Assembly (NCBI GenBank): GCA_003963115.1
Contig: RXJQ01000058.1
Coordinates: 1-64,000, forward strand
Reading direction: 5' to 3'
Origin: Burkholderiales bacterium
GTDB lineage: Bacteria > Pseudomonadota > Gammaproteobacteria > Burkholderiales > Burkholderiaceae_C
Length of the DNA stretch: 64,000 bases
In this document: positions 1 through 14,564 of the stretch, piece after piece
How positions within the stretch are numbered: the stretch's first letter is position 1
How the letters are laid out: each line of letters opens with the position of its first letter
The notes under the pieces: model-generated
Told to the model about the DNA's origin: nothing
Seen by the model: only the letters and a program-made list of their open reading frames with translations
Databases searched by the model: none
Translations under genes and position numbers: made by a program

Positions 1-45
1 CTCCGAAGGCAGGGGTTGCTGGTTCGATCCCAGCCGGGCGCGCCA
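1..45 (+). tRNA. tRNA-Arg(CCG), 3' part (5' half outside window)
   Basis: The window opens in the anticodon loop (CTCCGAA, anticodon CCG at 3-5). The anticodon 3' stem (8-12), a five-base variable loop, a perfect T arm (18-22 with 30-34, loop TTCGATC), the acceptor 3' strand CGGGCGC (35-41), discriminator G and an encoded CCA (43-45) follow. The acceptor matches the GCGCCCG start usual for tRNA-Arg(CCG). The 5' half cannot be seen, so whether the gene is intact is inferred. Confidence 0.85.
1..45 (+). repeat. Left att core (attL), 45-bp direct repeat
   Basis: Identical to 2201-2245. The core runs from the tRNA anticodon loop through the CCA end; identity stops at base 46 (a versus c). Tyrosine integrases that use tRNA genes commonly take the anticodon loop or T arm through the 3' end as core. 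Confidence 0.75.
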
Positions 46-1932: not shown

Positions 1933-2002
1933 CATTCTGGGCCTCCGGTGCAGCCATCTGCGTGCCTCCGGTGGAGGCCTCAAGGCTGTCTGTTCGATAT
2001 CG

Positions 2003-2022
2003 GCACTTTAATCCATAAGTGC
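2003..2022 (-). promoter_or_regulatory. Inverted repeat, candidate antitoxin operator
   Basis: GCACTT (2003-2008) and AAGTGC (2017-2022) form perfect 6-bp arms about 70 bases upstream of the antitoxin start, where a self-repressing antitoxin would bind. Confidence 0.45.
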
Positions 2023-2064
2023 AATAAATGCAGCATGTGAATCAAGTGAAAAGCACCAGGCACT

Positions 2065-2111
2065 AGCGCCAAACACGTTGGCGCTCCGACACTTTTCCGA
2101 CACTTTGTCGG
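2065..2111. repeat. Cluster of palindromes and direct repeats near the right end
   Basis: Three structures sit together: a perfect palindrome AGCGCCAA (2065-2072)/TTGGCGCT (2078-2085); a direct repeat CCGACACTTT at 2086-2095 and 2097-2106 (11-bp period); and CCGACA-CTT-TGTCGG (2097-2111). Like the left-end repeats they could be arm sites for a recombinase, or operators for the toxin-antitoxin genes. Confidence 0.5.
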
Positions 2112-2200
2112 TGATGTCTGGGTATAATCCGGTACATGTCGATAACGCAAGTTGTTGATTTGGCGGGGTTTTTAGTGTCCCCCGCAGGTGCTGGAGTGCG

Positions 2201-2245
2201 CTCCGAAGGCAGGGGTTGCTGGTTCGATCCCAGCCGGGCGCGCCA
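2201..2245 (+). repeat. Right att core (attR), 45-bp direct repeat
   Basis: An exact copy of the tRNA-Arg 3' part at 1-45. The bases before it (GGTGCTGGAGTGCG) do not complete the anticodon stem or D arm, so this copy is not a functional tRNA. Bases 2246-2349 after it hold no gene that I can support; the lipid operon ends at 2350. Confidence 0.75.
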
Positions 2246-2349
2246 CGCTGTCAAAGCATGACGCAGGTCATGAACAGAGGAATTGTCCAGCCCCTTGCGT
2301 TGGCAAGACGCCTCATCCGGGCCTGGTCGATTCACGGTTGGCAAGGCCC

Positions 2350-3126
2350 TCACGCACCCGTCACGCGTCGCACCGCCGAAAAAAACAAGGCGCTGGGCAG
2401 ATGCCGCAGCAGTTGCATCCAGATGGTGAAGCGCCAGGGGAAGCTTATTTCGAATCGCCCTGCGGCCCAGCCACGCAGGATCGCGCAGGCTGCCTCGTCC
2501 GGTGTGATCAGCTGGGGCATGGCGAAGTGATTCTGGGCGGTCAGGGGTGTGTCGACAAAGCCCGGATTGATGATGGAGACACCCAGACCGCGCGGTTGTA
2601 GATCCAGGTAGAGGCATTCGGCCAGATTGTGGAGCGCGGCTTTGGTGGGGCCGTAGGCCATGGACAGCGGCAAGCCCCGGTAGCCCGCGACGCTGCCGAC
2701 CAAACTGATGTGCCCATGACCTGCATGGAGCATGGCAGGCAAGACGGCATCAAGCCAATACAGCACCCCTTCGTAGTTGACGGCCAGGTGGCGGCGCATT
2801 TCCTGGAGATCGTAGCTGTCCGCGCTTTGCGCCTTGTAATGGCCGGCGCAGTACAGCGCGAGGTCGGGCGTGCGGCCCATGTATTTCGCCAAGTCGGCCA
2901 AGGCCTGATGTGACGACTGCGGGTCCGTGGCATCCATCGGCAAGGCGATCGCACCAGGGTGTTCGCGCACGAACTGAGCCAGTGCATGGGCCTGCCTGGC
3001 CGACACGACCACGCGTGCGCCTTGGCGGTGCAGGGCGCTGGCCGTGGCGCGGCCGATGCCGGAGGAGGCGCCCACGATCCAGACCACGCTGCCGTGCCAC
3101 TGCCGGATGAGCGGGTTGTGTGCCAT
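2350..3126 (-). CDS. SDR-family NAD(P)-dependent oxidoreductase
   Basis: 258 residues, the classical SDR length. The cofactor loop GASSGIGR is near residue 19, the structural NxxG region near residue 90, and the catalytic Ser/Tyr/Lys lie in SLVGSVAG and MAYGPTKAAL. A hydrophobic, basic C-terminus (FPWRFTIWMQLL) suggests membrane contact. It is the last gene of the seven-gene operon and starts four bases after the DUF3833 stop. By context it probably reduces or oxidises a lipid-linked carbonyl or alcohol; the substrate is not known. Confidence 0.8.
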   Translation of the reverse strand: MAHNPLIRQWHGSVVWIVGASSGIGRATASALHRQGARVVVSARQAHALAQFVREHPGAIALPMDATDPQSSHQALADLAKYMGRTPDLALYCAGHYKAQSADSYDLQEMRRHLAVNYEGVLYWLDAVLPAMLHAGHGHISLVGSVAGYRGLPLSMAYGPTKAALHNLAECLYLDLQPRGLGVSIINPGFVDTPLTAQNHFAMPQLITPDEAACAILRGWAAGRFEISFPWRFTIWMQLLRHLPSALFFSAVRRVTGA

Positions 3127-3130
3127 GGCT

Positions 3131-3676
3131 TCAGCTCCGTCGAATGTCCAGCACGAGCTCGCCCAGATCCAGGCCGAGCTTGCTCATGCGTGAACGGTTG
3201 AGCACGGTGCGCTCGTCCACCTGGAACATCCAGTCATCCAGCTCGACATGCCAGGTGCGGCCCTCAACTGGCAGGGCCAGCGTGTAGCGCCACTGAAAGG
3301 CGTTGCCGGCGCTGTGGCCTCGGGCCTCACCGATCACGTCGCCTGCCTGCCCCGCGTAGCCGCCCTGGCCCAGATCACGCAGATGCCAGGTGCGGGTGGA
3401 GAGGCTGCCATCGCTGTACTTGAAGTGCTCGTCGAGCGTGCCGTCGGCGCCCTGCCAGCGGCCGGTCATGTCGACAACGAAGCGCTTGACGACGCGGCCG
3501 CCGCGATCGAAGAACAGCCCGCGGCCGGTGAGGTGGCCATCAAAGAAGCTGCGCAGGTCGAACACAGGCTGCTCCTTGGCATAGTCCTCCAGCCGGGGGC
3601 TGCTACAGCCCGCCAAGCCGATGGCCAGCAGCGAGCCCAGGGCATGTCGGCGGGTGCAGGCAGATTGGTCGCTCAT
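3131..3676 (-). CDS. DUF3833 family lipoprotein
   Basis: 181 residues from the ATG at 3676, chosen because it overlaps the transporter stop (ATGA) and gives a clean lipoprotein signal: basic start, hydrophobic run, lipobox LAGC with the lipidated Cys at 24. The mature part has the beta-rich pattern of DUF3833, a lipocalin-like family found beside CFA-type methyltransferases and DUF1365 (RGLFFDRGGRVVKRF, GTLDEHFKYSDG, WHVELDDWMFQVDE). Probably an inner- or outer-membrane lipoprotein that binds or presents a modified lipid; that role is inference from context. Confidence 0.75.
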   Translation of the reverse strand: MSDQSACTRRHALGSLLAIGLAGCSSPRLEDYAKEQPVFDLRSFFDGHLTGRGLFFDRGGRVVKRFVVDMTGRWQGADGTLDEHFKYSDGSLSTRTWHLRDLGQGGYAGQAGDVIGEARGHSAGNAFQWRYTLALPVEGRTWHVELDDWMFQVDERTVLNRSRMSKLGLDLGELVLDIRRS

Positions 3677-4941
3677 GTGCGTGTGCTCCATTCAGGGTGT
3701 TGTTGCTCGCCCCACCACAGGGTGAGGGCGGCCATCAGCTTCAATGCACAGGGCAGTGCGGCATAAGCCAGCACCAGGGCCTGCAGGGCTGCGGGATCCC
3801 GGCTGCCGCTTTGATAGCCCCATGCCTGCAGCAGGGGCAGGCTGGTTCCGGCTGCCAGGGCCAGACTCAATTTGCCGAAGAAGGCCCACCAGCCCACATG
3901 CAGGCCTTCCTGTGCGTTGCCGGTTTGACGCATCAGGCCTGTCAGGAGTGCGCCAGGCACCGCCAGATCAGCGCCCAGTGCGCCGCCACTGGCCACGCAA
4001 ATGAGCAGGAACGGCACCGCGTCGCCGGCTTGCAGCAGCGGGGTCAGCACAAAGGCCACCACCGTACATGTCATGCCAAGCCGCCAGGTCGGGGCCAGGC
4101 CTTGCCTGGCCACCATGCGTATCCAAAGTGGCAGGGTCAAAGCGGCGGCACCGAAATAGCTCAGCAGAAAGACGCCTTGCATCGAAGGCAGTTGCAATCG
4201 GTCGGCCACGAAGAAAGGCAGCAAGGTGGCGGGTATGGCTGCTGCCATGCCGTTGAGCAGGTAGACCGTGATCAGGCGTCTGAAGGCGGGGTTGCGCCAG
4301 GGCGAGGAGGGCTGTCCGTGGTGTATGGCCGGAGGCGCTTCTTCGGCTTGCAGACCAAAGGTGCGGCGCAGGCCGAGCAGACCCAGCAGGAGCCCGATCA
4401 TGAGTGCCGCATTGAGCCAAACGCGCGACTGCATGCTGATCAGGCCACTGGCCAGCATCACGCCCGATAGGGCCGCACCTTCCCGCCATGCCGCGATATG
4501 GGCACGCCAGACGGGCGAGCCGCCCCAACGTGTGCCCCATGCCTGGTGAATGATGACCAGGCTGCTGCAACTCAGGGTGCACAGCGGCAAGATGGCCAGC
4601 AGCCACCACAAAGGCGCCATGCCTGCTGGCACGTCCCACAATGCCGCGAAGCTGCCAGCCAGCATCAGGCCGATCAGGCATGCGACCCACCAGGTGCGCC
4701 GCTCGCTGTGGCGCAAGAGGGCATCGGTCCAGCGGCCCACGGCCGGGTCGATGGCTGCATCGAGTACTCGCGCAGCCAGCAACACCGCGCCAAGCGCGGG
4801 CAGGGCCACACCTGGGTATTGGGCATAGTGGTGAGGCAAGGCCACGTACAGTGGCAGGGAACCAAAGGCCAGCGGCGCACCGAGCAGGCCATAAGCCATG
4901 TGGGTGGCCGCCGTGCGCTTGTACTTTGGGTGGACGAGCAT
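3673..4941 (-). CDS. MFS/GPH-type transporter
   Basis: 422 residues with about twelve hydrophobic segments. The loop DAAIDPAVGRWTDALLRHS after the second or third helix matches the glycoside-pentoside-hexuronide (melibiose-carrier-like) branch of the MFS superfamily. It lies between a chalcone-isomerase-like gene (21 bases upstream) and the DUF3833 lipoprotein (ATGA overlap). In this setting it may flip or export a lipid or a small precursor; sugar transport is unlikely. Substrate unknown. Confidence 0.75.
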   Translation of the reverse strand: MLVHPKYKRTAATHMAYGLLGAPLAFGSLPLYVALPHHYAQYPGVALPALGAVLLAARVLDAAIDPAVGRWTDALLRHSERRTWWVACLIGLMLAGSFAALWDVPAGMAPLWWLLAILPLCTLSCSSLVIIHQAWGTRWGGSPVWRAHIAAWREGAALSGVMLASGLISMQSRVWLNAALMIGLLLGLLGLRRTFGLQAEEAPPAIHHGQPSSPWRNPAFRRLITVYLLNGMAAAIPATLLPFFVADRLQLPSMQGVFLLSYFGAAALTLPLWIRMVARQGLAPTWRLGMTCTVVAFVLTPLLQAGDAVPFLLICVASGGALGADLAVPGALLTGLMRQTGNAQEGLHVGWWAFFGKLSLALAAGTSLPLLQAWGYQSGSRDPAALQALVLAYAALPCALKLMAALTLWWGEQQHPEWSTRT

Positions 4942-4962
4942 GATGAAAGTGCCAGATGGGCC

Positions 4963-5520
4963 CTAATCGCCCAGGCCCAGCAAGGACGCACGCAGCGCCG
5001 GTGCGGAGGTCTGCGGTGCCAGCCAGATGCCGAAGAACAGGCGCGCGTATTCGCGGTCTTCGAGTTGCGCGGTCTGCTTGCCGTTATAGAAAAAGCGCAC
5101 GCCACCTTGGCCATTGTTGAGGCCCAACAGGCGGTCGTTGGCAGCCACATCCGGGAAGGCCGTCTTCATGCTGGTCAGCCAGCGCTTTTCCTGCAGCTCG
5201 CTGAAGGCCGACACCCGTCGCATCTCGGCGATGGAGCGTTCGGCGATGGCCTCGCCCTCCAGCTTGCGGGCATAGGTCAACTCCAGCGCGAAGGGCTGCT
5301 GCTCGTAGTGCTCGGTTGGCAGCCGCCCAGGGGCCCACAGCCTGGCTTCGTAGACGAGCAGGCCGAAGAAGCGAAGCGCGCCCTGCCCGATCAACTGGGC
5401 TTGGGGCAGTTCTGTACGGAGCTCGGCGGGGAGCGCAGGTGTGGCGAGTGCATTCATGGGCGTGTCAATGAGGCTGCAGAAAGCGCCGCAGAGCAAGGCG
5501 CGGCGAGTGAGCGTGTTCAT
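4963..5520 (-). CDS. Chalcone isomerase-like protein, exported
   Basis: 185 residues. It starts with a signal-like segment (RRALLCGAFCSL) and then the chalcone-isomerase-like fold seen in proteobacteria: GQGALRFFGLLVYEARLWAP, ELTYARKLEGEAIAERS, FFGIWLAPQTS. Bacterial members are generally not flavonoid enzymes and several bind fatty acids. Its ATG overlaps the stop of the methyltransferase gene (ATGA), so it is translated with it. Likely a periplasmic fatty-acid or lipid-binding partner of the operon. Confidence 0.75.
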   Translation of the reverse strand: MNTLTRRALLCGAFCSLIDTPMNALATPALPAELRTELPQAQLIGQGALRFFGLLVYEARLWAPGRLPTEHYEQQPFALELTYARKLEGEAIAERSIAEMRRVSAFSELQEKRWLTSMKTAFPDVAANDRLLGLNNGQGGVRFFYNGKQTAQLEDREYARLFFGIWLAPQTSAPALRASLLGLGD

Positions 5521-6794
5521 GGTCGCTTGCGCAAGGTGAACTGCATGACGTCGGTGTTGCCGCTGTCGAAGGCGGCCTCACAGTAAGTCAGGTAGAACGT
5601 CCAGATGCGCACGAAGCGCTGGTCAAAGCCCAGCTTCAGCACCTGCTCCAGATCACGGTGGAAGGCAGCGCGCCAGCGCCGCAGTGTCTCTGCGTAGTCC
5701 GGCCCGAAAGCCAGTCGCTGGACGACTTCGAACCCGGCCTTGCGCGCCTCCTGTTCGAACACCGCAGGTGAAGGTAGCAGGCCACCGGGGAAGATGTATT
5801 GCTGGATGAAGTCGGTGGAGCGCACATAGCGCTCGAAGAGGTCATCCCGGATCGTGATGGTCTGTATGCAGGCCTGACCGCCGGGCTTGAGGCAGGCGTG
5901 GAGGGTCTTGAAGTAGTCGGTCCAGTATTCACGCCCCACGGCTTCGAACATCTCGATGGAGACGATGGCATCGAAGGGCTCATGGGCGTGTCTCAGCGAC
6001 AGATCGCGGTAGTCCTCGTAGCTGAACTCGGCGAGGTGGTCGAGCCTGGCCTCTTTCAGCCGTCTCTGGGCCCACTGCAGTTGCTCGCGCGACAGCGTGA
6101 CGCCGGTCACGTGAGCCTGGAAATCGCGTGCGGCCAGTTCGGCCAGTCCGCCCCAACCGCAACCGATTTCCAGCACGCGGCTGCCGGCCTCCACGCCTGC
6201 CTCCCGCAAGGCTCGCCGAACCTTGGCCCACTGAGCGGCCTGAAGGTCGCCTGTGGCGCGGTCCTGCCCCTCGAACCAGGCCGAGCTGTAGCTCATGCTC
6301 GGGTCCAGCCAAAGCTGGTAGAAGCTGTTGCCCAGGTCGTAATGTGCGTGGATGTTGCGTGCGCTGCCCGCGCGGGTGTTGCGCCGGCGCAGGTGCTGTA
6401 TGCGGTGCCACAGGGACCCCCACCAGGTGCCGTAGATCATGCGTTCGATGTGGTCGCGGTTGGCCAGCATCAGGCGCATCAAGGCAGGGAGATCGGGGCT
6501 GTCCCACAGGCCTTCGATGTAGCCTTCTGCGAAGCCGATGTCGCCGCTGCGCAAGGTCCGTTCGAACACGCTCCAGTCATGCAGCTGGATGCCGGCCCGA
6601 AGCGTGCTCGGTGATGGCGCCTTGCCGCCTGACACCGGTGCAGGGCAGCGCAGGTGGCGGCCATCTGGCAGTTGCAGATCCAGCTGACCAACAGGTAAAC
6701 GCGCCAGCATGTTGAGCACCTGGCGTGCGGCGCGCGGGGCTTTGTGAGGCCTGGTTGACGAGGAGGCCAAGGTGGAGGCGGTCGTGGAGTTCAT
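5517..6794 (-). CDS. CFA-synthase-like SAM methyltransferase
   Basis: 425 residues from the ATG at 6794, which overlaps the DUF1365 stop (ATGA); the longer frame runs antisense-like through DUF1365. The SAM-binding loop is VLEIGCGWGG (about 207-216); HYDLGNSFYQLWLD (151-164) and QQYIFPGGLLPS are typical of cyclopropane-fatty-acyl-phospholipid synthases. By alignment from memory with E. coli Cfa, the bicarbonate-binding Cys139 is Ser171 here (YSSAWF) and His266 is Gln311 (QTIT). So it probably methylates an unsaturated acyl chain, but may not make a plain cyclopropane. Third gene of the operon. Confidence 0.85.
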   Translation of the reverse strand: MNSTTASTLASSSTRPHKAPRAARQVLNMLARLPVGQLDLQLPDGRHLRCPAPVSGGKAPSPSTLRAGIQLHDWSVFERTLRSGDIGFAEGYIEGLWDSPDLPALMRLMLANRDHIERMIYGTWWGSLWHRIQHLRRRNTRAGSARNIHAHYDLGNSFYQLWLDPSMSYSSAWFEGQDRATGDLQAAQWAKVRRALREAGVEAGSRVLEIGCGWGGLAELAARDFQAHVTGVTLSREQLQWAQRRLKEARLDHLAEFSYEDYRDLSLRHAHEPFDAIVSIEMFEAVGREYWTDYFKTLHACLKPGGQACIQTITIRDDLFERYVRSTDFIQQYIFPGGLLPSPAVFEQEARKAGFEVVQRLAFGPDYAETLRRWRAAFHRDLEQVLKLGFDQRFVRIWTFYLTYCEAAFDSGNTDVMQFTLRKRP

Positions 6795-7570
6795 CGGGTG
6801 ACAAAGCGCTCTGGCGCAGCAGGTTTGCGGATGAAGGGCACGCGCTTGAGCCACAGGCGCAGCGCTTGCCAATGGATGCGCAGGATCACGCCCAGGGTCA
6901 TCATGGGCATGCCGAAAAAGGCGTGACGCAGGCTGGCGGCGTTCAGTGGTACCAGCCGGCCGCCGAGGCTGGTCTGCAGCAGCGGGCCTTGTGCGTCCAG
7001 CAGGTCGATGCGAACGAGGTGCAGTGGGCCTTTGGGTGTCTGAGATTGCTGGAAGCGAAAGCGGTATTGCCCATCGGTGCGGCAAAAGGGAGAGACATGG
7101 AAGACCTTGTCGGCGATCAGGTCGCGGCCCCAGCCCAGCGAAGGGCCACTCAGCAAATAGCCATGCCGTTCACCGAAGGTGTTGTTCACCTCGGCCAGCA
7201 CGGCCACCAGTTCGCCATTGGCCCGATGGGCGTACCAGAAGCTCACGGGCTTGAAGGCATAGCCCAGGACGCGGGGGTAGGTTTGCAGCCAGATCTCGCC
7301 ATCGGCGTCGGTGATGCCTTCCTGCCTGAGCAACTGCTCGAACCAGGCGAGGGCATCAGGGCCGCCTTCGCCATGATCGGCATCATGGAAACTGATGGCG
7401 CCCCAGCGGTTGCGGGCCAGGCTGGCGTGCGCTTGCGCTCTCAAAGAACGCATCGGCAGCATGAGGAAGTAGCTGCCGTAATGGAAGGCATGCGCTTGAG
7501 GGCGCAGGCGCCGGTGCCAGACCCGGCCAAAGCCGATCTGCGCTTCATGATGTGGCATCACGCAGGTCAT
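6791..7570 (-). CDS. DUF1365 family protein
   Basis: 259 residues; recognised by HRRLRPQAHAFHYGSYFLML near the N-terminus, GYAFKPVSFWYAH in the middle and KVFHVSPFC later, the conserved blocks of DUF1365. A hydrophobic C-terminal segment (MMTLGVILRIHWQALRLWL) suggests membrane attachment. The family is almost always found between a flavin amine oxidase and a CFA-like methyltransferase, exactly as here, with ATGA overlaps on both sides. Its biochemical activity is not established as far as I know. Confidence 0.85.
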   Translation of the reverse strand: MTCVMPHHEAQIGFGRVWHRRLRPQAHAFHYGSYFLMLPMRSLRAQAHASLARNRWGAISFHDADHGEGGPDALAWFEQLLRQEGITDADGEIWLQTYPRVLGYAFKPVSFWYAHRANGELVAVLAEVNNTFGERHGYLLSGPSLGWGRDLIADKVFHVSPFCRTDGQYRFRFQQSQTPKGPLHLVRIDLLDAQGPLLQTSLGGRLVPLNAASLRHAFFGMPMMTLGVILRIHWQALRLWLKRVPFIRKPAAPERFVTR

Positions 7571-8886
7571 GCCGCCCCCTGCAGGGCCGGTGCCTGCCAG
7601 CCAGCTTGCGCAGCCAGCAGTTGACTGGCCGCTTCCACGCCAGAGCGCCAGCCGTCTTCATGGAAGCCATAGCCGCACCAGGCGCCGCAAAACCATGTCC
7701 GCCGATGACCTTGCAGGGCAGGCACCCGGCGCTGGGCTTCGATGGCGGCCAGATCGAACACCGGGTGGGCGTACTCGATGCGTTGGTGCACCTGTTGTTC
7801 ATTGATCGGGCGGCTCGGGTTGAGCGAGACGATCACGGGTTGATGCCAGGGCAGAGGCTGTAGCAGGTTGATGAGGTAGTGCAGGCACACTCGGGCTTGC
7901 TCCTGCTGGTCATCCGTGGCGCGCTCGTAGTTCCAGGCCGCCCAGGCGGCTCGGCTTCGCGGCAGCACGCTGGTGTCGGTGTGCAGCACGGCCATGTTGT
8001 GCTGATAGCGGATGGCGCCCAGTACCTCGCGCTCTTGACCGCTGGCGCCTGCGCCAAGCAAGGCCAGCGCCTGGTCGCTGTGGCAGGCCAGCACGACGGC
8101 ATCGAAGGACTCGGCTCCTTCGGGTGTCTGGAGCAGCACGCCGTGTTCGAGCCGCGTGAGCCCCAGCACCGGGCAGCGCAGCCGGCGGTCGGTGATGCGT
8201 TCCAGCAGCTTTTGCACGTAGTGCCGCGAACCGCCCCGCACCGTGTGCCACTGAGGCCGGTTGGTGATCTGGATGAGCCCGTGGTTGTGGCAAAAGCGGA
8301 TCATGGTGGCCACGGGAAAGCGCAACATCTGCTCGGTCGGGCAGGACCAGATGCAGCCGATCATGGGCAGGAAATAGTGCGAACGAAAGGCCTGGCTGAA
8401 GCCGTGCTCGTCCAGGAAGGCTGCGATGGACTGGTGCAGCTCGTTGTCGGCCTGTCGCTCGGCGATGCCGGTGCACAAACGGTTGAACCGCACGATGTCG
8501 GCCAGCATGCGCCAAAAGCCGGGGCGCAGCAGGTTGCGGCGCTGCGCGAACACCGAGCTGATCGAGTTGCCACTCCATTCCAGCGACGGCCCGCGCGCGC
8601 CGTTGGCCGGCACCTGCACGGAAAACGACATGTCCGACGGTGCGGTGTCGATACCCAGGTCGGCGAACAGCCGGGTCAGGCCCGGGTAGGTGCGGTGGTT
8701 GAACACCAGAAATCCGGTGTCGACGCCATGGGTGATGCCCTCCAAAGTCAAGTCGACCGTGTTGGCATGCCCGCCAAAGTGGGCGCCGGCTTCGAACAGG
8801 CTGACCTGCAAGTGAGACTGGGCACTGAGTTGCCAGGCCGCAGCCAGCCCTCCCACACCTGATCCAACAACAGCAACACGGTACAT
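7567..8886 (-). CDS. FAD-dependent amine-oxidase-family oxidoreductase
   Basis: 439 residues from the ATG at 8886 (MYRVAVVGSGVGGLAAAWQL); this start places the dinucleotide-binding GxGxxG loop at residues 8-13, and upstream codons lie in the operator region. The family (desaturase/phytoene-dehydrogenase/amine-oxidase fold) includes the flavoprotein paired with DUF1365 and CFA-like enzymes. HGVDTGFLVFNHRTYPGL and FCGAWCGYGFHEDGWRSG match the substrate and C-terminal FAD regions. First gene of the operon. It probably oxidises (desaturates) a fatty-acyl chain before or after methylation; in Rhodobacter a comparable gene pair serves the singlet-oxygen response. Confidence 0.8.
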   Translation of the reverse strand: MYRVAVVGSGVGGLAAAWQLSAQSHLQVSLFEAGAHFGGHANTVDLTLEGITHGVDTGFLVFNHRTYPGLTRLFADLGIDTAPSDMSFSVQVPANGARGPSLEWSGNSISSVFAQRRNLLRPGFWRMLADIVRFNRLCTGIAERQADNELHQSIAAFLDEHGFSQAFRSHYFLPMIGCIWSCPTEQMLRFPVATMIRFCHNHGLIQITNRPQWHTVRGGSRHYVQKLLERITDRRLRCPVLGLTRLEHGVLLQTPEGAESFDAVVLACHSDQALALLGAGASGQEREVLGAIRYQHNMAVLHTDTSVLPRSRAAWAAWNYERATDDQQEQARVCLHYLINLLQPLPWHQPVIVSLNPSRPINEQQVHQRIEYAHPVFDLAAIEAQRRVPALQGHRRTWFCGAWCGYGFHEDGWRSGVEAASQLLAAQAGWQAPALQGAA

Positions 8887-8921
8887 GGCTACCCTCAAAT
8901 GAACGATCCGGATCAATACGT

Positions 8922-8955
8922 GAACTGATTAGTTCAAAATATAACTGAATAGTAT
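8922..8955. promoter_or_regulatory. Two tandem TetR-type operator candidates
   Basis: Between the divergent amine-oxidase and TetR genes lie GAACTGATTAGTTC (8922-8935, arms TGAACT/AGTTCA when extended by one base) and TAACTGAATAGTAT (8942-8955). The two copies share AACTGAxTAGT and are 20 bp apart, about two helical turns. TetR regulators normally bind such palindromes in the divergent promoter and control both genes. A further palindrome GATCCGGATC lies at 8905-8914. Confidence 0.6.
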
Positions 8956-9000
8956 CCATTTTGCACTGTGGGGTATTTTCCATGGCCCGATCCGTCTACA

Positions 9001-9636
9001 ATGGAGCCCATGACTGCCCGAGCCTCCATCCGACAACAGCTTCAGCGCGTGCGCGAGGAAGCCATCGTGGTGGCCGTCAACCGCTTGTTGGCGACCAAGG
9101 GTTATGACGCCATGACGGTTGATGAGGTGGCCGCCGAAGCCGGCATGGCCAAGGCCAGCCTGTACAAGCTGTTCACGTCCAAGGAAGAACTGGCCGGTGC
9201 AGCCATGGTGGCGGCGCTGGAACGCGCGCTGGACTTTGTGGATGGGCTGCGAGCGGAGGCGGCGCGCTCGGATGGCGCCATTGATTCGCTGTCGCAGCTC
9301 AAGGCGGTGACGCGCTGGGCGATGCTGAGCCAGCTTGAAGGTGAAATGCCTGCACTGCCTTCGCAGAACTCCAGCCTGAGCGCTTCATTGCAGGCCAATG
9401 ACGCCTACATGGACAAGTTGATTGCCTTGAGCAACAAGCTCGGCATCTGGATCGCCGACGCCCAGGCCAGGGGTAAGCTCAACCCGGCGCTGCCTGCTGA
9501 GTTGCTGCTCTACACCCTGTTTGCCCGGGCTTGCGATCCGGTGGTGGGGATGCTCAAGGCCTCCGGCCAGTACACGAATAAGCAGATCCTTGATTGGGTG
9601 GAGTCGGCCACCTTCAATGGGCTGGCTGCGCGCTAG
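9001..9636 (+). CDS. TetR/AcrR family transcriptional regulator
   Basis: 211 residues from ATG 9001 (a second ATG at 9010 is equally possible); upstream frame is promoter DNA. The N-terminal helix-turn-helix is ATKGYDAMTVDEVAAEAG followed by MAKASLYKLFTSKEEL, standard for the family. The C-terminal ligand-binding domain has no recognisable ligand signature. Divergent from, and 114 bp away from, the lipid operon, so it most likely represses that operon in response to a fatty-acid or lipid ligand. Convergent with the GT41 gene. Confidence 0.85.
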   Translation: MEPMTARASIRQQLQRVREEAIVVAVNRLLATKGYDAMTVDEVAAEAGMAKASLYKLFTSKEELAGAAMVAALERALDFVDGLRAEAARSDGAIDSLSQLKAVTRWAMLSQLEGEMPALPSQNSSLSASLQANDAYMDKLIALSNKLGIWIADAQARGKLNPALPAELLLYTLFARACDPVVGMLKASGQYTNKQILDWVESATFNGLAAR

Positions 9637-9644
9637 GGTTGCCT

Positions 9645-11498
9645 TCACGGTCCGGGGGGCGTTTGCCGCAAGGCCTGGGCGATGAGTTCGTCGGCAGGGA
9701 AAAGCGCTCGACACTGCTGCCACATGCCTCGCAAGGCCTGCTCGAAATGCCGTGCGAAGCGGTCTGCGTCGAACAGCGGCGAGGCCTTGAGCTGTTCACG
9801 CAAGCGGCCGCGCAGGCTGGCCAACTGCTGCACATCCGTGCTGAGGCTGATGGCGCGGGCTACGTAGTCGTCGGCATCGTTGGCGACATACGCCGGCAGC
9901 CCCGCATTCATCATCATGCCAACCCCTTGCCGGGCCACGAGCTGGCGTCCGGCGAGGGTCAGCACGGGCACCCCCATCCACAGGCTTTCGGCGCTGGTGG
10001 TGCCACCGGTGAAAGGGAAAGGGTCCAGGGCGATGTCCACCTGGCCATACGCGGCCAGGTAGTCTGCACGCGGCGACAAGCCCTCCAGCGTCAACCGGGT
10101 TTCGTCGATGTCATGCTGCGCAAAGCGCTTGAGCACATCTTGCCGAATGCCTGCGTCGCCCAACTGCTTGGCCTTGAGCAGCAGCCCGCTGCCGTCAACG
10201 GCGTGCAGTACCTTCGCCCACAAGGCCACCACCTCGGCATTGAGCTTGCTCAGGTTGTTGAAGCAGCCAAACGTGATGTGGCCCTTGTGGAGTGCAGGCA
10301 GTGGCGCTACGGGCACGTTGTCATCAGGTGGCGTGAAGCACAGCCTGGTCTCGGGCAGGCGCCAGACCTGTTCAGTGAAATGGCGCTCTTCTGACGCGGG
10401 CAGTGTCCAGGGGTCGGCGATGAAATAGTCAATGGCCCGCACGCCTGTGGTCGCGAAGTAGCCCACCCATGTGGCCTGAACCGGGGCGGGCTTCAAGGCG
10501 AACAGGGGCAGGCGGTTGTGCGCTGAATGGCCCGAGAGGTCGATCAGGATGTCGATGGCGTCTTGTCGTATCAGCTCGGCCAGTTGGCGATCGGGCATGC
10601 CCGTCACCTGGCGCCAGGCCTGGCACGAGGTCTTGATGCGTTCGGTCACCTCATCGGTACGGGTGTGGCTGGCGTAGACGACGATGCCCAACTTGCACTC
10701 GGGCTGTCGAGACAGGGCTGCGAGCACGCCTTCCACGAAGTAGCCCACGGGGTGGCGGCTGAGGTCGCCTGAGACCAGGCCCACGCGCAATGGGCGCTGT
10801 GCGTCCCGTGTGTTGGCCCAGTCGGTGAAAGGCACGCCGCGCTTTGCCACGAGTTCGCCGTAACCACGGGCTTCGGCCAGCAAGGCATCGGGGTCTTGCT
10901 GGGGCAGGTAGTTGTGGGCAAAGAGCAGGTTGCTGTAGGCGTCGGTGAAGTCGGGCCTGTGTTGGAGTGCTTGCCGGTAGCTGGCCAGCGCTTCATTCAA
11001 CTGCCCCAGTTCTTGCAAAGCGATGCCCAGGTTGTTGTGGGCTGCGGCGAGGTCAGGCTTGATGCGCAAGGCTTGGCGGTAACTGGCCACGGCTTCTATC
11101 AGCTTGCCGCTGTCTTTCAAGACGATGCCCAGGTTGTAGTGCGCATCGGCGGCATCAGGCTTGAGCGCCAAGGCCCGTCGATAGCAGCCAATGGCTTCTT
11201 CATACCGGCCCGCATCACGCAGCGCATTGCCCAAGTTGCCTTGGGCCTCCACGTCGTTGGGCAACAGGGTGGCGGCTTGTTCAAGGGCTTGCAGTGCGTC
11301 CTTGCCTTGAACCAACAGGGCCGTTCCGAAGATCTTCCAGACCATGCCCGACTCAGGGTGCAAGCCGACGAGCAGGCGTGCACGGGTCTCCAGTTCCACA
11401 TAGCGGCCTGTGTTGAACAACTGGCTCAGGAGCTGTGCTTCGTCACGCGACAGTGGCGATGGCTTGGGGGCGGCAGAGGCGTGTTTGGCTTTTTTCAT
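9645..11498 (-). CDS. TPR-containing GT41 (O-GlcNAc transferase/SPINDLY-like) protein
   Basis: 617 residues. Residues about 15-225 are five to six TPR units (for example GRYEEAIGCYRRALALKP, DAADAHYNLGIVLKDSGKL). Residues about 235-610 are the GT41 catalytic region: GYFVEGVLAAL, LIDLSGHSAHNRL (family His), QATWVGYFATTG, ITFGCFNNLSKL and DPFPFTGGTTSAESLWMG for the nucleotide-sugar site. Relatives transfer a sugar to Ser/Thr or Asn of proteins in the cytoplasm. The gene stands alone, convergent with tetR and divergent from the secreted cytochrome gene. Acceptor protein unknown. Confidence 0.85.
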   Translation of the reverse strand: MKKAKHASAAPKPSPLSRDEAQLLSQLFNTGRYVELETRARLLVGLHPESGMVWKIFGTALLVQGKDALQALEQAATLLPNDVEAQGNLGNALRDAGRYEEAIGCYRRALALKPDAADAHYNLGIVLKDSGKLIEAVASYRQALRIKPDLAAAHNNLGIALQELGQLNEALASYRQALQHRPDFTDAYSNLLFAHNYLPQQDPDALLAEARGYGELVAKRGVPFTDWANTRDAQRPLRVGLVSGDLSRHPVGYFVEGVLAALSRQPECKLGIVVYASHTRTDEVTERIKTSCQAWRQVTGMPDRQLAELIRQDAIDILIDLSGHSAHNRLPLFALKPAPVQATWVGYFATTGVRAIDYFIADPWTLPASEERHFTEQVWRLPETRLCFTPPDDNVPVAPLPALHKGHITFGCFNNLSKLNAEVVALWAKVLHAVDGSGLLLKAKQLGDAGIRQDVLKRFAQHDIDETRLTLEGLSPRADYLAAYGQVDIALDPFPFTGGTTSAESLWMGVPVLTLAGRQLVARQGVGMMMNAGLPAYVANDADDYVARAISLSTDVQQLASLRGRLREQLKASPLFDADRFARHFEQALRGMWQQCRALFPADELIAQALRQTPPGP

Positions 11499-11702
11499 GA
11501 GGGCAGTGTTGGGCTTAACCGCTTGTGGTTACGACCATGGTTTTCCATGATGAATTAAATGCATCAAGTTCAATTTTTCAACCTCATACAGGGGGGATAC
11601 AGGACGAAAACACGCGCTTCCCTTCTTCCATCCCTTGTTGTCGTTTTTTAGATTGAGGACGTGCATTTTGATTCGACGACACGAGCACGAGGAGACCGCA
11701 CC

Positions 11703-14564
11703 ATGACTACCCCTTGCACCAGCCCAGGCGGGCGAACCCGACCATGGCGACGCGTTGGCGCTGCCGCACTGGCAGCCCTGTCCCTGTCATTGGTCGCGAT
11801 GATGCCGCAAGCCGCACAGGCCGCATCACCGTCTTTCATCGCATTTGAGAGCGGGCAGGTCAGGCCCCTGGCCATGTCATCTGATGGCACGCGCTTGTTC
11901 GCCGTGAACACGCCCAATGGCACGCTGGAGATCTTCAACATCACGCCGACGGGCTTGCAGTTGTTTGCCCGTGTGCCTGTTGGCATGGAGCCCGTGGCCG
12001 TGGCCTTGCGAAGCGACAACGAGGTATGGGTGGTCAACCACCTGTCCGACAGCGTCAGCGTGGTCAGCCTCGATGGCGCGCCGCGTGTGGTGCGCACCCT
12101 GTTGGTGGGCGATGAGCCGCGTGACATCGTGTTTGCCGGTTCACCTGCCAAAGCCTTCATCACCACGGCCCATCGTGGCCAGCAACTGACCGATCCCTCA
12201 CTGAGCGGTGTGCCGGGTGCAGGCGACCCCAAGATCACCACGCCCAGCATCGGTCGTGCGGATGTGTGGGTCTTCAACCCGGCCAGCCTGGGTAGTGCCA
12301 TGGGCGGCGTGCCTGTCCGCATCATGAGCTTCTTCGCCGACACGCCGCGTGCCCTGGCAGTGAGCCCTGATCACAACACGGTGTACGTGGCCGCCTTCCA
12401 GTCAGGCAACGAGACCTCATCGGTCAACGAGCAACTGATTTGCGACAGCTTTGATCTCAACAAGACCTGCACGGTGGTGGGCAAAACGATGCCGGGCGGT
12501 CGCCTGGGCCCGCAGACCAATGCCGAAGGCAAGCCTGCACCCAAGACCGGCATGATGGTCAAGTACAACCGTGCCACCGGGCACTGGGAAGACATCGTCG
12601 GGCGCAACTGGGATGCCGCCGTGCCCTACACCCTGCCCGACAAGGATGTGTTCGCCGTGGATGCCAATGCGCTGAGCGAGAAGCGCTTCTACCAGCATGT
12701 GGGCACCACGCTCTTCAACATGGTGGCCAACCCGGTGACAGGCAAACTCTACGTGAGCAACACCGAGGCCAACAACATGGCCCGCTTCGAAGGGCCGGGC
12801 AAATTCGGTGGCTCCACAGTGCAAGGCAAGATCGCCTTGTCGCGCGTGACGGTGATCGTGGACAACAACGTCATGCCCCGATACCTGAACAAGCACATCG
12901 ACTACACGAAGCTCGTCAGTGACCCGGCTTTTGATCCCACGGTGAAGGACCACAGCCTGGCCACGCCCACCGAGATGGCGGTGAGCAAGGACGGCCAGAC
13001 CTTGTACGTGGCGGCCTTCGGCTCCAGCCGCATCGGCGTGTTCAACACCAATGAGCTGGAGACCGACAGCTTCAACCCGCGCAAGGCCAGCAGCAACTAC
13101 ATCACGGTCAGTGGTGGCGGCCCCAGCGGCCTGGTGCTGGACGAGGCGCGTGGCCAGATGTATGTGATGACCCGCTTCGACAATGCCGTGAAGGTGGTCA
13201 ACCTGAGCACGCATGCCGAGGTGGCACAAGCGGCGCTGCCCAATCCCGAGCCGGATGCGGTGATCAAGGGGCGGCCGATGTTGTATGACGCACGGCGCTC
13301 GTCTTCCAACGGAGAGGCTTCTTGCGCAAGTTGCCACATCTTCGGTGACATGGACGCCCTGGCCTGGGACCTGGGCAACCCCGATGAGGTGGTGACCAAG
13401 AGCCCCATTCCCGGCAAGTTCACCGATGGCCTGCAGTTCCAGGGCGCCAAGATCATCTTCAATGTGAAGACCAAGATCAACGGCAGTGATGACCCCACCG
13501 ACTTCCACCCGATGAAGGGGCCGATGACCACGCAGACCTTGCGGGGCATGCGCAACTCGGGCGCGATGCACTGGCGTGGCGACCGCTCCAACGGCATCTA
13601 TGGTGTCTCGGCTTTCGATTCCACCGTGTCGTTCAAGAACTTCGCCGTGGCCTTTGCCGGCCTCTTGGGCAACCCCGCGCCCATGAGCGAAGCCGACATG
13701 CAGACCTTTGCCGACTTCATGTTGCAGGTGCAGATGCCGCCCAACCCCATCCGCAACCTGGATAACTCGCTGACGGCCTCCCAGCAGCGCGGCAAGGACT
13801 TCTACTTCGGCGACCGGCCGGCGGACGGCTTCAAACTGGTGCTGTTCGGCAAGTCGGTGCTCGCCAACAACAACTGCAATGGCTGCCACACAGTGGACCC
13901 ATCGCAAGGCAAGTTCGGCACGGGTGGCTTCCAGAGCTTCGAGGGCATCTCGCAGATCGTGAAGGTGCCGCAGTTGCGCAACCTGTACGCGAAGGTGGGG
14001 CGTTTCGGCGCGGCGGCCATTCCTTTTGCTGCGGCGCAGCCCACGGGCTTCCTGGGAGACCAGGTGCGTGGCTTTGGTTTCGTGCACGACGGCTCGGCCG
14101 ACACACTGGCGCACTTCTTCACGGTGCGGGTCTTCCAGCCGACCTTGAACTCGGGCTTCCCCCTGATCAACCCGGATGCCACGCGCAGCGATGTGTCTGA
14201 CTTCGTGCACGTGATGGACAGCGACCTGGCGCCCATCGTCGGGCAGCAGGTCACGCTGACATCGGCCAATGCGGCTGCTGTGGGGCCGCGCATCGACCTG
14301 CTGATCCAGCGCGCGAAGGCGCCGTTTGTGTCCAAGGAACTGGGCGGCAATGTCACAGAGTGCGACCTCGTGGCCCAGCTCGTGGAAGGCGGCACGCGCA
14401 AGGGCTATGTCTATGACCCGGCCAGTGCGCAGTTCGTGTCGGCCATGGACAGCACCCGCCGCACCGATGCCGCCCTGCGTGCGCTGGCCGCCACCGCTGG
14501 CCAGGAAGTGACCTACACCTGCACGCCGCCTGGTTCGGGCCGCCGCATCGCGTCGTCCAGCTGA
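11703..14564 (+). CDS. Secreted beta-propeller protein with two c-type haem sites
   Basis: 953 residues from ATG 11703, after GAGGAG; the longer frame lacks a signal. A Sec signal peptide (GAAALAALSLSLVAMMPQAAQA) is followed by YVTN/YncE-like propeller repeats (RPLAMSSDGTRLFAVNTPNG, TPTEMAVSKDGQTLYVAAFG, GPSGLVLDEARGQMYVMTRF) to about residue 520. The C-terminal half has haem motifs CASCH (541-545) and CNGCH (725-729) with LRGMRNSGAMHWRGDRS between them, as in di-haem peroxidase/MauG-like proteins. Probably a periplasmic or exported redox protein; substrate unknown. A strong terminator follows. Confidence 0.8.
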   Translation: MTTPCTSPGGRTRPWRRVGAAALAALSLSLVAMMPQAAQAASPSFIAFESGQVRPLAMSSDGTRLFAVNTPNGTLEIFNITPTGLQLFARVPVGMEPVAVALRSDNEVWVVNHLSDSVSVVSLDGAPRVVRTLLVGDEPRDIVFAGSPAKAFITTAHRGQQLTDPSLSGVPGAGDPKITTPSIGRADVWVFNPASLGSAMGGVPVRIMSFFADTPRALAVSPDHNTVYVAAFQSGNETSSVNEQLICDSFDLNKTCTVVGKTMPGGRLGPQTNAEGKPAPKTGMMVKYNRATGHWEDIVGRNWDAAVPYTLPDKDVFAVDANALSEKRFYQHVGTTLFNMVANPVTGKLYVSNTEANNMARFEGPGKFGGSTVQGKIALSRVTVIVDNNVMPRYLNKHIDYTKLVSDPAFDPTVKDHSLATPTEMAVSKDGQTLYVAAFGSSRIGVFNTNELETDSFNPRKASSNYITVSGGGPSGLVLDEARGQMYVMTRFDNAVKVVNLSTHAEVAQAALPNPEPDAVIKGRPMLYDARRSSSNGEASCASCHIFGDMDALAWDLGNPDEVVTKSPIPGKFTDGLQFQGAKIIFNVKTKINGSDDPTDFHPMKGPMTTQTLRGMRNSGAMHWRGDRSNGIYGVSAFDSTVSFKNFAVAFAGLLGNPAPMSEADMQTFADFMLQVQMPPNPIRNLDNSLTASQQRGKDFYFGDRPADGFKLVLFGKSVLANNNCNGCHTVDPSQGKFGTGGFQSFEGISQIVKVPQLRNLYAKVGRFGAAAIPFAAAQPTGFLGDQVRGFGFVHDGSADTLAHFFTVRVFQPTLNSGFPLINPDATRSDVSDFVHVMDSDLAPIVGQQVTLTSANAAAVGPRIDLLIQRAKAPFVSKELGGNVTECDLVAQLVEGGTRKGYVYDPASAQFVSAMDSTRRTDAALRALAATAGQEVTYTCTPPGSGRRIASSS

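Follow-up and report, generated by a model that had tools for sequence, protein, structure and literature searches.

A probable furan fatty acid operon beside a divergent TetR gene in a member of the Burkholderiales

Which membrane lipid is made by a tightly coupled set of seven genes in a Burkholderiales bacterium, and which regulator controls them? The genes lie on the minus strand at positions 2350-8886 of a 64,000-nucleotide stretch of DNA (GenBank assembly GCA_003963115.1, contig RXJQ01000058.1, positions 1 to 64,000; hereafter the window), and a gene for a TetR-family regulator diverges from the first of them. Furan fatty acids are membrane lipids thought to be protective against reactive oxygen, and the best overall explanation, which we consider quite likely, is that the locus is a TetR-controlled operon for their synthesis. 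The pathway itself is known and its gene arrangement common; the regulator is of a rarer kind, an in-situ replacement of another operon appears to be visible, and a role of the accessory proteins in lipid trafficking is plausible.

The original prediction of one coupled seven-gene operon was confirmed from the open reading frames (ORFs) and the bases. All seven genes are intact and none is interrupted, and four of the six junctions are 4-bp ATGA overlaps (flavin adenine dinucleotide [FAD] protein/DUF1365, DUF1365/CMAS, CMAS/chalcone isomerase [CHI]-like and MFS_2/DUF3833), the other two being gaps of 21 bp (CHI-like to MFS_2) and 4 bp (DUF3833 to SDR). Every one of the seven proteins exceeds its Pfam cut-off.

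The core trio and its predicted product

In the passages of Lemke 2020 that describe the pathway (PMC7380195), UfaM methylates cis-vaccenate, UfaD, an NAD/FAD-domain protein related to phytoene desaturases, gives 11Me-10t,12t-18:2, and UfaO, a DUF1365 protein, uses O2 to form the furan fatty acid (FuFA) 9M5-FuFA; the R. palustris trio is RPA2571, 2570 and 2569. The first three window genes belong to the same families in the same order as ufaD-ufaO-ufaM, which is the usual order among relatives. They encode a UfaD-like FAD oxidoreductase, the candidate methyl-acyl desaturase (7567..8886, 439 amino acids; PF01593 and PF13450), a UfaO-like DUF1365 protein (6791..7570, 259 amino acids; PF07103 at 260.5 bits against a cut-off of 25) and a UfaM-like S-adenosylmethionine methyltransferase of the CMAS family (5517..6794, 425 amino acids; PF02353 at 282.5 bits), all on the minus strand. 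The DUF1365 protein is the only match to its family in the genome, and 22 columns are invariant among 15 DUF1365 proteins drawn from several classes of the phylum. The FAD protein, whose best solved relative by sequence is LkcE (3.9e-36), is placed by the Amino_oxidase family and by adjacency, with no UfaD-specific model among its matches. We infer from family, gene order and the literature that the trio is orthologous to its R. sphaeroides and R. palustris counterparts.

Within the family such a gene set is the norm, a common arrangement of a known pathway. DUF1365 occurs in 154 of 200 family genomes, 153 of 398 phylum genomes and 38 of 42 genomes of the host genus. From the 154 positives, without the 30 best scorers (whose loci were too short to judge), forty family loci were selected manually, roughly following the order of their handles. 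UfaD, UfaO and UfaM are present in all 40, the transporter and the SDR in 36 each, the CHI-like and DUF3833 proteins in 35 each, a SnoaL-like protein in 34 and glutathione peroxidase (GPx) in 17. All seven operon families stand near UfaO in 32 of the 40, and the arrangement is therefore not chance. The full set also recurs in 59 of 79 named loci taken from the best 80 of 587 matches; one locus, in which the profile found no UfaO, was dropped, several are truncated where the contig stops, and some come from contigs already represented among the family loci, the titles being beta- or unplaced proteobacterial.

Since the gene set is common and its trio matches ufaD-ufaO-ufaM, the chemistry counts as known, and furan fatty acids are very likely the product of the three core enzymes. 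The domains and order of the trio bear out the original prediction of an unusual membrane lipid with methylated furan fatty acids as the lead. By analogy with the published relatives, UfaM would add a methyl group to phospholipid-bound cis-vaccenate, UfaD would desaturate the methylated chain, and UfaO would insert O2-derived oxygen and close the furan ring, giving 9M5-FuFA or an equivalent from the cell's own 18:1; we hold this series of steps to be highly probable. The methyltransferase might instead make ordinary cyclopropane or simple methyl-branched fatty acids, with the FAD and DUF1365 proteins doing something else. It belongs to the CMAS family and, at 283.8 bits, is the only genome protein above 36 bits in that search, so it could be the cell's cyclopropane fatty acid (CFA) synthase; because the next matches reach only 35.5 (above the cut-off of 27), 21.1 and 20.6 bits, no second strong CMAS protein is evident, although FufM itself was not searched for. 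The protein nevertheless falls below the NCBIfam CFA-synthase cut-offs (252 against 400, 240 against 600 and 226 against 650 bits, with no UfaM-specific model appearing), and a CMAS gene lies beside UfaD and UfaO in 40 of 40 family loci, so that we regard a mere cyclopropane or methyl-branched product as very improbable.

A divergent TetR gene and its candidate operators

The TetR gene (9001..9636, plus strand, with a possible start at 9010; 211 amino acids; PF00440) diverges from ufaD across 114 bp and occupies the place where relatives carry a ChrR or MerR regulator. A divergent MerR gene is found in 21 of the 40 family loci and a divergent TetR gene in five; the regulator beside the window operon is thus of a less common type. 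The TetR protein has 11 non-self matches at 71-77% identity, and all eight of those examined adjoin ufa genes. Because clustering the stop-to-stop ORFs upstream produced many antisense families, regulators were assigned with seeded profiles, whose four labels were checked on examples (Pfam, n = 8; NCBIfam, n = 2). Locus L114 carries a ChrR at 189 bits, above the cut-off, locus L032 a MerR with two B12-binding domains (one under the Pfam cut-off) that scores 120 bits to CarH, under a cut-off of 400 that no control genome passed, and locus L122 a MerR lacking B12-binding domains.

The best match to the ChrR model TIGR02451 in the window's own genome reaches 21.7 bits against a cut-off of 124.5, which one of 14 control genomes passes, and neither a ChrR nor a MerR match was found in the first 20 kb of the window. 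The best CarH/LitR match in the genome is 32.2 bits, over the helix-turn-helix (HTH) part only, compared with 120 bits for the L032 neighbour, with the B12-less LitR classes not tested. The original prediction that TetR stands in place of an extracytoplasmic function sigma factor and ChrR thus agrees with a divergent TetR gene and no ChrR over the cut-off in the genome.

Conserved palindromes lie in the promoter region shared by the divergent genes. Candidate operator 1 (8921..8936, no strand assigned) is a 16-bp palindrome with 6-bp arms, TGAACTGATTAGTTCA, conserved in relatives, and candidate operator 2 (8944..8953, likewise unstranded), ACTGAATAGT, is an ACTN4AGT repeat 20 bp from site 1. 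By eye, in an alignment of 14 loci, the two flank the -10 element of a candidate ufaD promoter (8938..8966, minus strand), in which a -35-like GTGCAA (8966-8961) and a -10-like TATATT (8943-8938) are separated by a 17-nt spacer. The operator 1 pattern, drawn post hoc from this site, has a single match in the 64 kb at up to 2 mismatches, where 0.07 would be expected. ACTN4AGT occurs in 27 of 30 TetR-linked promoters, or 25 of 28 distinct ones once the duplicates L049/L227 and L204/L222 are merged, with a shuffle mean of 0.8, and in three of 70 MerR-linked and none of 25 ChrR-linked promoters. Other duplicates include at least L212/L260, L207/L234, L195/L239 and L067/L295.

From these conserved sites, TetR would repress ufaD through the palindromes flanking its -10 element and would be released by a ligand, a scheme we consider likely. 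Several observations weigh against it. The closest locus, L194, has one mismatch in operator 1 and was scored as motif-positive only via another site; a consensus promoter scan of 2000-9700 found no promoter; and the 200-nt control stretch in GPx-led operons falls partly in or beside GPx. ACTN4AGT is also present in 13 of the 71 promoters for which no linked regulator was detected, and within the 300 nt upstream of the first operon gene it occurs at 16 non-TetR loci; the motif is therefore not exclusive to TetR. Some TetR proteins activate, and TetR could be an activator here, or the operon could be driven mainly from elsewhere, as the 13 motif-bearing loci with no linked regulator found would allow; the position of the palindromes around the candidate -10, judged by eye, is by contrast the usual repressor layout, and we think activation or another main promoter unlikely. 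An unlinked TetR may act at the motif-bearing operons that have no linked regulator. The loci with ACTN4AGT upstream and no linked regulator found include L037, L219, L274, L281, L284, L287 and L291, among others.

A clue to the ligand was sought among the neighbours of eight free-standing TetR homologues and the attempt was dropped, the recurrent ORFs looking antisense or unrelated. No TetR-controlled furan-fatty-acid operon turned up in a limited literature search, which did not extend to PMC7074977, a paper that mentions furan fatty acid, TetR and operon.

Two operon lineages in one genus

Thirty-seven loci of the host genus, from 37 of its 38 DUF1365-positive genomes (the partial G790 was left out), fall into 11 that are TetR-linked, 15 with MerR and GPx and no CHI-like gene, 8 with GPx and no MerR found, and 3 divergent operons with a second CMAS gene. 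In these last three (L183, L184 and L215) the UfaD-UfaO-UfaM operon is divergent and the second CMAS gene lies downstream; they are possible makers of dimethyl-furan fatty acids. In a tree of 87 loci (FastTree, with local supports), 20 TetR-linked operons fall into one main clade (0.992), and others are found at four more positions. The window's TetR clade is separate from the GPx lineage of the genus (0.994), the two being neighbouring clades (0.903). A first tree had set the window operon apart from its own genus, a view dropped once genus loci were added and the operon became sister to L194 of the same genus (support 1.0), and the claim was therefore narrowed to two operon lineages within one genus. 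In this closest relative DUF3833 is absent between the SDR and the transporter (L194:5637-5745), a point against the overall explanation.

Most relatives have a SnoaL-like gene after the SDR; within the initial 20 kb of the window none was found. A SnoaL-like homologue lies next to a GPx gene on another contig of the same genome (C55, L300:7970-8991), and GPx and SnoaL-like are the first and last genes of the genus-native operon. That contig is collinear with the native locus L033 on both sides of the operon (L300:4644-8424 with L033:1-3790 at 75%; L300:8467-8960 with 10035-10528 at 88%; L300:9345-10184 with 10899-11738 at 91%), and likewise with L198 on both sides, and the block from SDR to UfaD, about 6.2 kb, is absent from it. 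Its GPx is 91% identical to that of L033, and its SnoaL-like protein is 75% identical to that of L198 and groups with those of the genus's GPx-type operons (0.996). Collinear flanks around a missing block, with GPx and the SnoaL-like gene kept, indicate that the native operon was most likely cut out. With strong confidence, then, a native operon at another site appears to have been excised in situ with its outer genes left behind, and the window operon would not be the genus's original copy.

The same GPx was searched for in 12 genus genomes with other operon types. Nine of them (seven TetR-linked, two divergent) gave a GPx of 65-88% identity, with both flanks alignable to L300 in five and a single flank in four, and no ufa or SnoaL-like gene was found within these nine stretches, one of which is a 6-kb contig and one of which has two GPx copies. 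In G695, G803 and G795 only a GPx of 54-58% was found.

The window operon may have originated by horizontal transfer, or else by an ancient duplication or a switch of regulator followed by differential loss. A history without transfer, in which an ancestor had both operon types or underwent one regulator switch and lineages then lost one or the other, would fit the presence of both types in one genus, the adjacency of the genus MerR/GPx lineage, which includes L063, to the main TetR clade (support 0.903), and the single DUF1365 match in each of the 38 positive genus genomes. The TetR-type clade, however, mixes genera and excludes the MerR/GPx lineage of this one, and no genome with both types was seen among the 38 positives; descent without transfer seems to us a serious possibility that falls short of an even chance. 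Our account of operon, lipid, ChrR kinship and TetR is that of the original prediction, which overlooked how common the set is across the family, its MerR-linked relatives and the apparent deletion of the native operon.

At the 3' end of the window operon, a tRNA 3' terminus occurs in two identical 45-bp copies, at window positions 1-45 and 2201-2245; the tRNA, Arg(CCG) by eye, is almost whole where contig C102 begins. Between the copies there may be an integrative element, adjoining the operon at the point where the SnoaL-like gene is missing. Inside it, at 884-1983, genes for a PIN-domain protein and an excisionase-type HTH protein share one base and look like a toxin-antitoxin pair. On the other side, the TetR gene has as its neighbour, at 9645-11498, a gene for a TPR protein that includes a glycosyltransferase family 41 domain; at 11661-14564 a 967-amino-acid protein shows matches to a lactonase-type beta-propeller and to cytochrome c.

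Accessory proteins and the closest known systems

The four genes after ufaM, all on the minus strand, suggest lipid trafficking. The MFS_2 (GPH) transporter (3673..4941, 422 amino acids; PF13347) is closer by profile to MFSD2A (1.2e-15) than to MelB (2e-9); its D61 and D65 are invariant in 22 of 22 sequences, paired helix-II aspartates that we take to be a cation site, shared with MelB and hence not discriminating. The CHI-like protein (4963..5520, 185 amino acids; PF16036 at 37.7 bits) has a probable signal peptide, judged by eye, and its AlphaFold2 model (mean predicted local distance difference test, pLDDT, 90.4) matches an engineered ancestral CHI (4.5e-9), AtFAP1 (4.4e-7) and also AtFAP3 in Foldseek. 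Arg85, Arg95 and Arg177 are invariant in 46 rows. The DUF3833 lipoprotein (3131..3676, or from an upstream ATG at 3691; 181 amino acids; PF12915 at 210.3 bits; LAGC lipobox by eye) is modelled with ten strands (pLDDT 91.8) and compares with nitrobindin at template modelling scores of 0.61/0.70. Its lipobox Cys24 is invariant (46 of 46), followed by Ala in 42 and by Ser in the window; under the Lol rule, this suggests that the lipoprotein sits in the outer membrane. The SDR oxidoreductase (2350..3126, 258 amino acids; PF00106) reached no NCBIfam cut-off among the best 25 of 209 families. Sequence-only PDB searches with the DUF3833, CHI-like and DUF1365 proteins gave nothing below E 0.08.

The MFSD2A-like transporter might flip a furan (lyso)phospholipid, the CHI-fold protein carry it through the periplasm, the calycin-like lipoprotein of the outer membrane receive it, and the SDR reduce carbonyls left by furan oxidation; that the four together deliver or maintain a furan lipid is speculative and, in our estimate, rather doubtful. 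Arg50, by its position presumably the CHI/FAP ligand arginine, is present in only 27 of 46 rows, and the calycin-like barrel matches of DUF3833 are weak (nitrophorin, the best, at 3.5e-4; the fatty-acid-binding-like Ycf58 at 5.2e-4). In the fatty-acid results of PMC7380195, deletion of RSP1087, 1088 or 1089 caused no detectable change, and these genes are therefore without a shown role. These points tell against the trafficking role. Alternatively, the accessory genes could share the operon's control and yet serve another target than furan-lipid transport, for instance oxidised membrane lipids or haem. The unchanged fatty acids would fit it, as would the likeness of DUF3833 to the haem-binding nitrobindin and nitrophorin, and a haem role is possible because the CHI-fold proteins of yeast bind haem and not fatty acids (PMC9996372). 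On the other hand, MFSD2A, the nearest match of the transporter, is a lysophospholipid symporter, and the assay described in PMC7380195 covered phospholipid fatty acids of whole cells, in which, on our reading and not that of its authors, mislocation would therefore not show; we give this alternative appreciable weight, somewhat under one half.

Taken jointly, the genes after ufaM could be a dedicated export line for furan phospholipid from the inner to the outer membrane (MFSD2A-like flippase, CHI-fold carrier, calycin-like lipoprotein), the genus's version having been replaced in this lineage by one under a TetR that senses the state of the furan lipid itself. We think this unlikely as a whole, but if true it would place protection where photo-oxidants arrive, explain the unchanged whole-cell fatty acids after deletion, and give accessory genes lacking a phenotype in the published assay a testable job.

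The closest known system is that of R. sphaeroides, where RSP1091-1087 encode UfaD, UfaO and proteins of 402, 186 and 245 amino acids in an order like that of the window (PMC7380195). RSP_1087 (SDR) and RSP_1088 (lipoprotein) belong to the eight-gene core ChrR regulon (PMC5507510, Table 2), which fits the kinship with the RpoE-ChrR regulon rightly seen in the original prediction. In locus family f55, probably Rhodobacteraceae, ChrR is nearby in 19 of 19 loci and seven read UfaD UfaO MFS_2 DUF3833 SDR, in agreement with the printed order of RSP1091-1087. The type of accessory trio that RSP1089-1087 represent, called restricted to Rhodobacteraceae in 2013 (PMC3818230), is extended to Burkholderiales by the present loci. 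In R. sphaeroides ufaM lies elsewhere and control is by RpoE-ChrR, whereas the window has ufaM and the CHI-like gene inside the operon and TetR adjacent. Furan fatty acids have been tied to ChrR turnover (PMC6852236); should this genome lack ChrR, they could not have that role here. A phototrophic host was considered and ruled out, no reaction-centre match being found in the genome; with furan-fatty-acid genes, no reaction-centre gene, no ChrR over the cut-off and no B12-type light regulator found, the host could therefore allow the lipid's role to be studied apart from ChrR signalling.

In R. palustris the trio RPA2571-2569 has the same numbering order as the window, and FufM is also present, giving dimethyl-FuFA, while the window genome has no second strong CMAS protein, in a search not aimed at FufM itself. 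The pmlR1 region of Pseudomonas mendocina has an SDR, an FAD oxidoreductase, UfaM and hypothetical genes, like the window. Its ufaM is induced 25- to 33-fold by light, attributed to class II LitR proteins (PMC9758184), and phrB lies in the region, whereas no LitR/CarH of the B12 type was found in the window genome, B12-less classes not having been tested. Within the host genus, the native operon (L033, L198 and L192) reads GPx, UfaD, UfaO, UfaM, MFS_2, DUF3833, SDR, SnoaL-like and, unlike the window, has neither a CHI-like gene nor TetR, although five other GPx-type genus loci have CHI; 15 of the 37 genus loci carry a divergent MerR, and the one checked, in L032, has B12-binding domains. One genus with two regulatory versions and the old site still visible offers a natural experiment in the rewiring of a membrane-protection pathway.

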